Assembly (NCBI GenBank): GCA_020852855.1
Contig: JADZAA010000062.1
Span: 1 to 48,933 of the forward strand
Direction of reading: 5' to 3'
DNA from: Bacteroidota bacterium
GTDB lineage: Bacteria > Bacteroidota > Ignavibacteria > Kapaibacteriales > UBA961
DNA length: 48,933 nucleotides
This document shows, in pieces, positions 45,983 through 48,933 of the stretch (its first letter is position 1; each line of letters starts with the position of its first letter). Under the pieces are notes generated by a model. The model did no database searches. It was not told the origin of the DNA and saw only the letters and a list, made by a program, of their open reading frames with translations. Made by a program: the position numbers and the translations under genes.

Positions 45983-46024
45983 TTAAGGCCGTGCGACACA
46001 TTAAGTCTGCGGCCTTAACGTTTT
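45983..46024 (+). terminator. Terminator after the acyl-CoA carboxylase gene
   Basis: TTAAGGCCG (45983-45991) and CGGCCTTAA (46010-46018) form a perfect 9-bp stem followed by CGTTTT. Confidence 0.75.
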
Positions 46025-46273
46025 GGTGGCTTGGCGCAGGGCAGTTGGACATAAATGTTCATGCAGGCGTGAACGCTTGAATGACCGACCGGACTTTTCG
46101 GCAGTCATAATCCCAGCCTTGTGTAGAACCGCTTGTTACCGGTTCGGTGTTCTTTATCGCATGTTGGGTTGTCGGTCGTTCTTGGGGTGCGGTTGTACAG
46201 CCACACTCTTTGCCAAGCTTGTGTTGTAGCGTGGGCTTGTGCAAGCTGCAAATGTGCTTGACTACTGCGTTGG
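46025..46273. other. Non-coding boundary of the hsd locus
   Basis: This 249-base stretch downstream of hsdM has a composition visibly unlike hsdM: richer in G+C and rich in short GTT/GCTTG words. It contains small open frames on both strands (for example minus 46059-46244) but none shows a family pattern or a supported start. I treat it as a probable boundary between the chromosome and the accessory restriction locus. No tRNA or clear attachment repeat is seen. Confidence 0.3.
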
Positions 46274-47791
46274 CTATTCGTCTCCGTTTATGGTTTCCAT
46301 TATTTCTTTAAAACTGTTTAGTCCTGCCTCAATGTTTTCTATAATTTCATTTGCCAAAACATCAGGGTCGGGCAAATTGTCTAAGTCTGTGAGGCTTTTG
46401 TCTTTAATCCAAAACATATCCAAGTTGGTTTTGTCACGCTCAATGATTTCTTGATAGGTGAATTTTCTCCAACGACCTTCAGGATTTTCTTCGCTCCAAG
46501 TTTCTACTCGTTTGTTTCGGTTTTCAGGATTATAGCATTTTACAAAGTCTTTCAAATGCTCCGAAGTCATCGGGTTTTTCTTGAGCGTGTGGCTTATGTT
46601 GCTGCGGTAATCGTAAATCCAGACTTCTTTTGTCCAAGGGTCTTTGGAAGCAGGTTTGTTGTCGAAAAACAACACATTTGCTTTTACGCCTTGAGCATAA
46701 AATATCCCTGTCGGCAAGCGTAAAATGGTGTGCAGCTCGGTCGTTTTCAATAATTCTTTACGCACGGTTTCACCTGCTCCGCCTTCAAACAACACATTAT
46801 CGGGCAATACTACGGCTGCTTCGCCTGTGAGTTTGAGCAGCGTTTTTATGTGTTGCAAAAAGTTCAGTTGTTTGTTGGCGGTGGTTGCCACAAAGTCCTG
46901 ACGATTGATAATGTAGTCTTGCTTTTCTTGTTTGCTTTCTTCGTTGGTAATGGTCATACTGCTTTTTTTACCAAAAGGCGGATTGGCAAGTACATAATCA
47001 AAACGCTGACCGTTGTCTGAAATCAGGGCATCTGCCGAAGAAATCAATGGTTTGCCATCTATTTCGCCAATGTTGTGCAGAAACATATTCATCAAACACA
47101 TTCTGCGGGTGTTGGCTACAATTTCGTTTCCGTAAAAGGTTTTGTTTTTCAAAAACTCTTTTTCCTCTTTATCTAATTCCTGTGCTTTGATAAAATCATA
47201 AGCTGCCAAAAAGAAACCACCTGTACCGCAAGCAGGGTCGTTAATGGTTCGCATTGGTTTAGGGCGAACACAAGTCACCATTGTTTTGATTAATGAACGT
47301 GGCGTAAAATATTGCCCTGTACCGCTTTTGGTGTCTTCGGCATTTTTCTCCAGCAGACCTTCGTAGATTTTCCCCTTTATGTCGGTTCCCATCAGGCTCC
47401 ATTGCTCTTTGTCAATCATATCAATGATTTTTAAGAGTTTGGAGGGGTCTTGTATTTTGTTTTGGCTCTTTACGAAAATCTGTCCCAATGTCCCTTTTTC
47501 GCTACCCAAACTGCGAAGCATTTGGTTATAGAATGTTTCCAACTCCAAGCCACGTTTTTGAGATAGCGTTTGCCAGTCACAGGTTTCGCCTTTGGGGTCT
47601 TCTTCGCCTTGGGCGTTTTTGAGTTTAGGGAATTTTAATCCTTTGCTGTATGGCGGTTTGTTGAATTCATCTGCCATTTTAAGGAAAAGCAAATAGGTGA
47701 TTTGCTCTAAATAATCACCATAACCCACGCCATCATCACGAAGGACGTTGGCGAAATTCCACACTTTTGATACGATTGCACTTTCTGACAT
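46274..47791 (-). CDS. hsdM: Type I restriction-modification system DNA methyltransferase subunit HsdM
   Basis: A 505-residue N6-adenine methyltransferase subunit. The N-terminal HsdM_N helical domain starts with SKVWNFANVLRDDGVGYGDYLEQITYLLFLKM. The SAM-binding motif is DPACGTGG (185-192) and the catalytic motif NPPF (270-273). The protein seems complete and could methylate DNA if paired with an HsdS. In its direction of transcription it follows a RAYT-type transposase gene (16-bp gap) and a truncated hsdS. No hsdR is in the window. AT-rich composition relative to neighbours suggests horizontal acquisition. Confidence 0.96.
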   Translation of the reverse strand: MSESAIVSKVWNFANVLRDDGVGYGDYLEQITYLLFLKMADEFNKPPYSKGLKFPKLKNAQGEEDPKGETCDWQTLSQKRGLELETFYNQMLRSLGSEKGTLGQIFVKSQNKIQDPSKLLKIIDMIDKEQWSLMGTDIKGKIYEGLLEKNAEDTKSGTGQYFTPRSLIKTMVTCVRPKPMRTINDPACGTGGFFLAAYDFIKAQELDKEEKEFLKNKTFYGNEIVANTRRMCLMNMFLHNIGEIDGKPLISSADALISDNGQRFDYVLANPPFGKKSSMTITNEESKQEKQDYIINRQDFVATTANKQLNFLQHIKTLLKLTGEAAVVLPDNVLFEGGAGETVRKELLKTTELHTILRLPTGIFYAQGVKANVLFFDNKPASKDPWTKEVWIYDYRSNISHTLKKNPMTSEHLKDFVKCYNPENRNKRVETWSEENPEGRWRKFTYQEIIERDKTNLDMFWIKDKSLTDLDNLPDPDVLANEIIENIEAGLNSFKEIMETINGDE

Positions 47792-47807
47792 ATTGATATT
47801 TTTCTGT

Positions 47808-48488
47808 TTATTTGTAAAATTTGTCTTTGTCCCATTTTAATGGGTTGTTGATAATGTATTGGGAAATGGTATGAAAAGATTTTTCATCTCTAATGATATG
47901 GTCGTGGAAACGGGTTTGCCATTCAAATTTATAACCCAATCGGTGGGAATGTTTGCTAACAGCCGATTTGTATCCACCAATGATAGATGATATAGAATTT
48001 TTGCCGATATTTTGAAATCTGTTTGTTGGGTCGGGGGTGGGTTGAGATAGTTGAGACAGGGCATGCCCTGTCTGTACGGGGGATTCGGGAGTGGGTTGAG
48101 ATAGTTGAGACAGGGCATGCCCTGTCTGTACGGGGGATTCGGGGGTGGGTTGAGATAGTTGAGACAGGGCATGCCCTGTCTGTACGTTCGTATTGCCGTT
48201 TTCATTATCATCATTTCCGTTCAAAATCAAAATCCCGTGTATATGATTGGGCATTACCACAAATTCGCCTAATTCAATGTTTTTTGCATGGTTTTTTATT
48301 TCATGCCATAATATATCCGCAATAATACCTACGGCAGATAATTGCATTTTGCCATTGATTATTTCCCCAAAAAAATGTTCCCGATTTTGGGTGCAAATGG
48401 TAATGAAATACGAACCTGCCCAGCGGTAATCCCATGTTTGTAACCGAGCAGAAGCAATGCGATATTTATTTTGAAATTTATCTGACAT
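47808..48488 (-). CDS. IS200-like/RAYT-type transposase with internal repeat insertion
   Basis: A 226-residue Y1-transposase-family protein of the REP-associated (RAYT) kind. Family features are WAGSYFITICTQNR near residue 23, the metal-binding His pair in VVMPNHIHGILIL (77-89) and the catalytic Tyr211 in SQYIINNPLKW. Between the two catalytic halves, residues 102-152 are three near-identical 18-residue repeats (VQTGHALSQLSQPTPESP type) encoded by the 54-bp DNA repeats at 48033-48186. No flanking terminal hairpins of a full IS200 element are evident, so it is likely a domesticated, non-autonomous transposase. It sits 1 bp after the hsdS remnant and 16 bp before hsdM. Confidence 0.85.
   Translation of the reverse strand: MSDKFQNKYRIASARLQTWDYRWAGSYFITICTQNREHFFGEIINGKMQLSAVGIIADILWHEIKNHAKNIELGEFVVMPNHIHGILILNGNDDNENGNTNVQTGHALSQLSQPTPESPVQTGHALSQLSQPTPESPVQTGHALSQLSQPTPDPTNRFQNIGKNSISSIIGGYKSAVSKHSHRLGYKFEWQTRFHDHIIRDEKSFHTISQYIINNPLKWDKDKFYK
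48033..48186. repeat. Three 54-bp tandem repeats, each with a perfect 18-bp palindrome
   Basis: Units are 48033-48086, 48087-48140 and 48141-48186 (the last partial); units 1 and 2 differ at one base. Each contains GACAGGGCATGCCCTGTC, a perfect palindrome, at 48055-48072, 48109-48126 and 48163-48180. The period is a multiple of three, so the transposase reading frame stays open. Confidence 0.97.
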
Positions 48489-48489
48489 C

Positions 48490-48807
48490 TTATTGCTTGC
48501 TTTTCTTTTTAATGATTAGTTTCTTCTTCTCTTGTTCTTTAGCCAATTTCTCGGCTTGTATTTTTTTGAGCAACTCACCGGCTGGTTCGTAGTCTGCTGC
48601 GGCTTTGCATTGTTCTATTTCTGCCTCGCTGAGCAGCTTGCCTTCAAAGGCTTTTTTCAAAATGCTTTGGCGAAGGGCTTCGGCTTTTTCTATGCTCTCG
48701 TTTATGCTTTGCTCCATGTTGTCGCAGACGGATAGGCGGCTTTCTATTTCCTGGACGATTTGGGTTTGTTCTTGGATAGAGCAAAGTGCAAAATAAGCGT
48801 TATTCAA
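48490..48807 (-). pseudogene. hsdS: C-terminal remnant of type I specificity subunit HsdS
   Basis: About 105 residues matching only the last part of HsdS: the second conserved coiled coil and tail (CSIQEQTQIVQEIESRLSVCDNMEQSI...ALRQSILKKAFEGKL). Normal HsdS is about 400 residues with two target-recognition domains, both missing here. The frame opens with a TTG at 48807 and meets a TAA at 48817-48819 just upstream, so homology is broken near 48785. The likely cause is insertion of the rightward element starting at 48867, or recombination among hsdS fragments. If expressed, it could not by itself specify a DNA target. Confidence 0.8.
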
Positions 48808-48866
48808 TTTACATAGTTACCGTTAAATATTCACACAAAACAGGGTTGCATTTACTTAAAAAAACT

Positions 48867-48933
48867 ATGGCAAAAGTACTAGTAATAAAAGGTTACACCT
48901 CAGAGCAGATTAAAGCCGAGCTCAGCGAGTGTG
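48867..48933 (+). CDS. Start of an unidentified rightward gene, cut by the window edge (possible IS transposase)
   Basis: An ATG at 48867 opens 22 codons (MAKVLVIKGYTSEQIKAELS...) that run off the window. The short peptide looks like the beginning of a helix-turn-helix transposase N-terminus, perhaps IS630-like, which would explain the adjacent broken hsdS. The evidence is only pattern memory plus context, so identity is uncertain. Confidence 0.35.
   Translation, partial: MAKVLVIKGYTSEQIKAELSEC

Follow-up and report, generated by a model that had tools for sequence, protein, structure and literature searches.

In-frame REP-derived palindromes in the linker of a predicted subclass 2.4 RAYT gene of a Bacteroidota bacterium

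A gene predicted to encode a REP-associated tyrosine transposase (RAYT, or TnpA-REP) of a Bacteroidota bacterium was found to carry, in frame and between the two catalytic halves of the enzyme, a triplicated unit with a perfect palindrome. These palindromes exceed what the encoded protein requires and belong to the same family as REPs dispersed in other genomes; their feet are altered, and no other copies are present in the host genome. Most probably, a double-foot REP entered the loop of a subclass 2.4 RAYT, its feet drifted and the unit was triplicated, leaving hairpins that would be poor substrates of the enzyme.

The RAYT gene and its tandem units

The window (the whole stretch of 48,933 nucleotides that was analysed) encodes a 226-aa protein (Table 1) which, as judged from its sequence, is a member of TnpA-REP subclass 2.4, a subclass that we take to be group 4 of Bertels. 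Its NHIH, WQ and YIINNP motifs are conserved among relatives (around NHIH, HxH and M-P are invariant and N is kept in at least 90% of the 28 aligned sequences) and agree with the motif table of the subclass, i.e., NH[IFV]H, WQ and YIxNNP (Quentin et al., 2018; PMC6006769). In the Escherichia coli enzyme, the residues contacting GTAG are W94, Q95 and R104 (PMC6006769). The NCBIfam model REP_Tyr_transpos matched the protein with an E value of 5.6e-19 and 68.5 bits, which is under its 80-bit cut-off, and a Pfam search matched no family; the identification of the RAYT rests on motifs, homologues and fold. For an AlphaFold2 model derived from an alignment of 28 relatives, the best PDB fold match (E value of 4.5e-06) was 4er8, the E. 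coli RAYT with a bound REP hairpin, which has the HuH/Y1 fold and is also the sole PDB sequence relative of the protein. The RAYT-type transposase proposed in the preliminary description is thereby upheld. The flexible linker suggested there also agrees with the model, in which the core blocks exceed 90 pLDDT, and residues 95-161, between the catalytic halves, are mostly below 50 and hence predicted to be disordered.

The region between NHIH and YIINNP was resolved by Tandem Repeats Finder into 2.9 copies of a 54-bp period with 98% matches, and this likeness of the units makes the triplication look recent. Each unit comprises a perfect palindrome of 20 nt, AGACAGGGCATGCCCTGTCT, encoding QTGHALS within the repeated unit peptide VQTGHALSQLSQPTPESP, and takes in 34 bp of Pro/Ser-rich linker downstream of the palindrome. 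The open reading frame, the repeat analysis and the palindrome positions all bear out what had been described earlier, namely three in-frame 54-bp units with a perfect palindrome, lying between the HIH and Tyr halves and encoding QTGHALS. With up to three mismatches allowed, the three sites of the 18-bp core GACAGGGCATGCCCTGTC were the sole matches in the window, and none appeared in 100 shuffles. The palindrome region folds as single-stranded DNA (z = -8), and an Rfam search of positions 46000-48933 gave no match, and so no structured-RNA family. The variation in copy number anticipated for the repeat was found between relatives, most of which have one full palindrome, compared with three in the window and five half-units plus one full palindrome in genome G251; each species is represented here by one genome, and the window count is read from one draft assembly (138 contigs).

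Table 1. Features of the RAYT locus in the window, and type I restriction-modification genes at related RAYT loci.
Feature	Coordinates	Strand	Basis or remarks
RAYT/TnpA-REP coding sequence	47808..48488	-	226 aa, subclass 2.4 type; motifs, homologues, fold
NHIH (HuH motif), aa 81-84	48237..48248	-	28-sequence alignment
WQ, aa 190-191	47916..47921	-	starts the region that in the E. coli enzyme contacts GTAG
YIINNP (catalytic Tyr motif), aa 211-216	47841..47858	-	YIxNNP form of subclass 2.4
Three 54-bp tandem units, in frame, in the linker between the catalytic halves	48031..48186	-	Tandem Repeats Finder
Palindrome AGACAGGGCATGCCCTGTCT, unit 1 in coding order	48162..48181	.	18-bp core at 48163-48180; outer tetranucleotides GTAC (coding strand), GTTG (other strand)
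Palindrome AGACAGGGCATGCCCTGTCT, unit 2	48108..48127	.	18-bp core at 48109-48126
Palindrome AGACAGGGCATGCCCTGTCT, unit 3	48054..48073	.	18-bp core at 48055-48072
hsdM, type I restriction-modification methylase	46274..47791	-	Pfam N6_Mtase 1.5e-72, HsdM_N; PADLOC MTase_I 6.7e-192
hsdS, 3' part	48490..48807	-	stop one base from RAYT start codon (TAAGATG)
End of multi-copy insertion sequence	48807..48933	+	cuts off 5' part of hsdS at contig end
hsdS/hsdR around RAYT, L212			Pfam
hsdS/hsdM around RAYT, L213, L216, L228			Pfam
hsdS upstream of RAYT, L229			Pfam
hsdR downstream of RAYT, L232			Pfam

At 20 nt, perfect and present three times, the palindromes fall within the size range of canonical REPs (20-40 bp), which carry a GT[AG]G foot at one or both ends and have dispersed copies in the same genome. 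In all three window units the usual GTAG is replaced, by GTAC in the coding strand and by GTTG in the complementary strand, and because GT[AG]G feet are missing we refer to them as REP-derived palindromes rather than REPs. A general loss of feet inside RAYTs can be ruled out, as at least one foot is kept in 13 of the 15 in-gene copies in other RAYTs and the feet are lost in two. The TnpA-REP of Stenotrophomonas maltophilia binds GTTG and GTAC variants yet leaves them uncleaved, and with the Marinomonas TnpA-REP, GTAC redirects cleavage (PMC8266576). Both enzymes belong to group 3, so for the window RAYT we infer, by carrying over their foot effect, that GTAC and GTTG should impair cleavage. 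The idea that the RAYT recognizes its own gene in the canonical way is therefore not supported for the window copy, both feet of which have forms that prevented cleavage by a RAYT studied elsewhere (PMC8266576).

The palindrome in the host genome and in other genomes

Pattern searches located the exact 18-mer core in the host genome solely in the window RAYT gene; allowing three mismatches added two sites, which is not convincing beside the one site given by the reversed-pattern control. No core copy flanks the gene within 445 bp upstream, where the contig end cuts the searched side, or 608 bp downstream (10 of 20 positions mismatch in the best candidate). The great majority of subclass 2.4 members have REPs within 1 kb of the gene, a typical though not strictly defining feature. 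With neither a second genomic site nor a flanking copy, the host genome offers no trace of entry from a resident REP family.

The core is dispersed in other public genomes, where it was found in at least 119 stretches, mostly of Bacteroidota, with some of Chloroflexota and a few others. Among the matches listed, most copies are intergenic or lie in short frames, and the core is also read in frame within unrelated long ORFs. Other RAYT genes contain at least 15 copies, in frame and at the same position, between the N half and the C half. Many copies extend outward to GTAGRGACAGGGCATGCCCTGTCYCTAC, a sequence that corresponds to the double-foot REP described for subclass 2.4. The recurrence of the core in many genomes and in other RAYTs rules out a chance palindrome or an ordinary minisatellite, and it supports the REP-like nature originally ascribed to the palindromes. 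The preliminary description had held that absence of the palindrome both elsewhere in the genome and in relatives would speak against it; the genome indeed has no second site, whereas relatives commonly have the core.

Links between linker palindromes and dispersed elements were visible in several relatives. The linker palindrome of G310 is one of 12 identical genome copies (11 further); G341 and G385 yielded no double-foot element other than the in-gene one. The complete genome G251 contains the core three times only, in the left flank, inside and in the right flank of its RAYT gene (L203; G251:C1:557700-560500); this gene has one in-frame stop, and both flanks and the linker are occupied by arrays of half-REP units (VETGHA, about 18 bp each) together with a full palindrome. 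Across 99 relatives, 50 genomes had a RAYT match and 27 of these contained double-foot elements, compared with 13 of the 49 genomes lacking a match (p = 0.008, phylogeny uncorrected).

Several further occurrences were recorded. A second, diverged RAYT of the host genome (L168; contig 91, G000:C91:16900-19200) has different linker palindromes, GGGGCGAAAAATTTTTCGCCCC. Long non-RAYT ORFs in which the palindrome is read in frame as TGHALS are found in L069, L084, L120, L133, L143 and others, and L120 looks like a DNA primase by local sequence. Pasteurella atlantica NVI-9100 (L097, L111, L142 and L151) is a gammaproteobacterium with several copies of this mostly-Bacteroidota palindrome; its RAYT has a broken frame, with one palindrome copy inside and one just upstream, and lateral transfer is possible. 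Plasmid relatives amount to two records, of which the Spirosoma one lies outside any restriction-modification operon.

For a wider comparison, RAYT relatives were gathered by protein similarity, with palindromes ignored, and the best linker inverted repeat of each was set against synonymous-codon shuffles of the same peptide (p <= 0.05). The linker inverted repeat went beyond the shuffles in 41 of 60 relatives and was not significant in 19, and equal-length stretches of the N half, used as a control, were positive in 2 of 60. A second, phylum-wide sample gave 18 of 23. Pooled, this amounts to 59 of 83 RAYTs, a count of genes that are not independent, since both samples include close relatives. 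The usual linker form is a 28-bp double-foot palindrome, GTAGRGRC-N6/N6'-GYCYCTAC, in which the outer part is constant, the inner part varies and the arms covary. For 18 chosen 28-mers, both members change in 10 of 14 pairs and 99.2% of cells are paired, compared with 73.7% in shuffles; as these sequences were chosen as palindromes, the pairing is inflated and covariation is illustrated rather than proved. The synonymous-shuffle test is the less biased evidence. The closest natural experiment on palindrome upkeep is the L006/L007 pair, in which GTA->GTG (silent) on one arm is accompanied by CTA->CCA (Leu->Pro) on the other, and the palindrome stays perfect.

Among 67 linker palindromes with a recognisable foot, 56 are read in one open frame, 11 in the other and none in the frame that reads GTAG as a TAG stop. 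One universal TGHALS frame is ruled out, since L059 and others use an RDRACPVS frame. No same-family copy occurs within about 700 bp outside the gene for 44 of the 61 genes with a linker palindrome. RAYTs of this clade carry in-frame palindromes as a general feature.

Origin and upkeep of the palindromes

In the explanation that we favour as probable, the surface loop between the HuH and Tyr halves in subclass 2.4 would be unstructured and offer a place where REP palindromes can land and expand. The loop would have been entered by a double-foot REP of the GTAGRGACAGGGCATGCCCTGTCYCTAC family, in the frame reading VxTGHALSx and probably via the action of the RAYT on its own REP family. The feet would then have drifted to GTAC and GTTG, and slippage of replication at the hairpin, the simplest cause of such a triplication, would most likely have turned the palindrome and its downstream spacer into three tandem units. 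The presumed outcome is a longer flexible linker with three hairpins still present, expected to be poor cleavage substrates that may still bind the enzyme in a bound-but-not-cut state, the repeats being tolerated, it would seem, without a strong function.

How the palindromes are kept could be answered in other ways. It is possible, if less probable, that no selection is involved: replication errors templated by the opposite arm would mend imperfect palindromes and slippage would expand them, which is compatible with the above account of their origin. The both-arm changes among the 28-mers, the tandem half-unit arrays, (VETGHA)n in G251 and (VGTGHD)n in L089, and the three near-identical window units are in line with such mutational upkeep, but it leaves unexplained both the presence of the same few cores at the same place in different RAYTs and the identity with dispersed REPs in G310. 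Covariation does not by itself prove selection, because the arms would also stay matched under template-switch correction of imperfect palindromes, or if new REPs replaced them time and again.

We consider it unlikely that the RAYT targets itself with a function, i.e., that it binds the hairpins of its own mRNA, or those of its gene when single-stranded at the replication fork, and thereby limits its own expression or carries its substrate to new genomes. Linker palindromes are preserved at the DNA level across many RAYTs, and the S. maltophilia enzyme retains binding to GTTG and GTAC substrates (PMC8266576); moreover, the 44 of 61 genes that have no nearby copy and the solitary elements of G341 and G385 suggest that the in-gene copy could be a portable substrate of the enzyme. 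Such self-targeting is, however, at odds with the loss of feet in the window and in 2 of the 15 in-RAYT copies elsewhere, and with the 19 of 60 related RAYTs in which the linker palindrome is not significant. Scarcely credible is the idea that selection acts on the peptide, as a flexible spacer, with the palindrome a side effect of the codons used. In its favour, the linker is predicted to be disordered and lies between two conserved halves, but synonymous-codon shuffles of the same peptides rarely yield such palindromes, which rules out a protein-driven repeat, and linker peptides vary widely among relatives in sequence and length while palindromicity stays.

Operon context and relation to known systems

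The RAYT gene lies within a type I restriction-modification operon (Table 1), with hsdM starting 16 bp after the RAYT stop on the same strand; the insertion sequence that interrupts hsdS occurs at 22 other places of the host genome, many of them at contig ends. Type I genes were identified (Pfam) on one or both sides of the RAYT in 6 of 27 new phylum-sampled close loci, of which L229 and L232 contain near-identical RAYT genes from one genus, and the RAYT and hsdM overlap at their stop and start codons, respectively, in L213 and L216. Six RAYTs found through their palindromes also adjoin restriction-modification-type genes. The RAYTs of the clade recorded in restriction-modification operons are those of the window (46274-48807), of L212, L213, L216, L228, L229, L232 and L259, and of L054, L060, L074, L089, L116 and L125. 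A small query set gave no match to 223 more distant control ORFs, and an anti-phage library search left the window RAYT itself unmatched. Among 30 operons of the window HsdM type, the RAYT occupies the hsdS-hsdM junction in three (window counted), and in many hsdS directly adjoins hsdM. The window and L228 share 66% identity in HsdM and 44% in the RAYT cores, which suggests separate acquisition. A literature search, with most subscription papers outside its reach, found no paper on RAYTs between hsdS and hsdM/hsdR, and their recurrence there is probably new. That the RAYT is a working part of Bacteroidota type I operons, co-translated between hsdS and hsdM/hsdR, with its altered-foot hairpins forming a bound-but-not-cut self-site that tunes the operon, appears to us very unlikely.

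In-frame REPs in tnpAREP subclass 2.4 have already been described (Quentin et al., 2018; PMC6006769); in-gene palindromes of this subclass have thus been known since 2018 and the window gene is a further case. It shares with the subclass (i) the catalytic motifs, (ii) a variable HuH-Y insertion, (iii) the double-foot REP type, (iv) a maintained frame and (v) occurrence in Bacteroidetes, and departs from the norm in its triplicated unit with a 34-bp spacer, in the alteration of both feet, and in having neither a flanking REP nor another genome copy. A literature search found no biochemistry on subclass 2.4. Intragenic GTAG and CGTC REPs have been reported in other genes, including Rickettsia palindromic elements (Di Nocera et al., 2013; PMC3733652); they too are short palindromic repeats in frame in protein genes, plausibly tolerated in linkers or loops, but they sit in unrelated genes, whereas the window host gene belongs to an enzyme family thought to spread repeats. 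The E. coli REPtron (TnpA-REP, PDB 4er8) resembles the window system in its HuH/Y1 fold and in the W-Q...H..R region contacting GTAG; in contrast, its REPs flank the gene, have a bulge and need intact GTAG, and its protein (165 aa) is without a long linker.

To this prior work the present analysis adds the codon-shuffle test, the L006/L007 pair and the foot comparison. RAYT genes with their own in-frame palindromes offer a test case for how RAYTs meet and spread REPs, as the palindromes can be removed or re-footed via synonymous or near-synonymous codons with the catalytic halves left untouched. The nesting of such genes between hsdS and hsdM/hsdR ties a single-strand DNA enzyme to restriction-modification operons.
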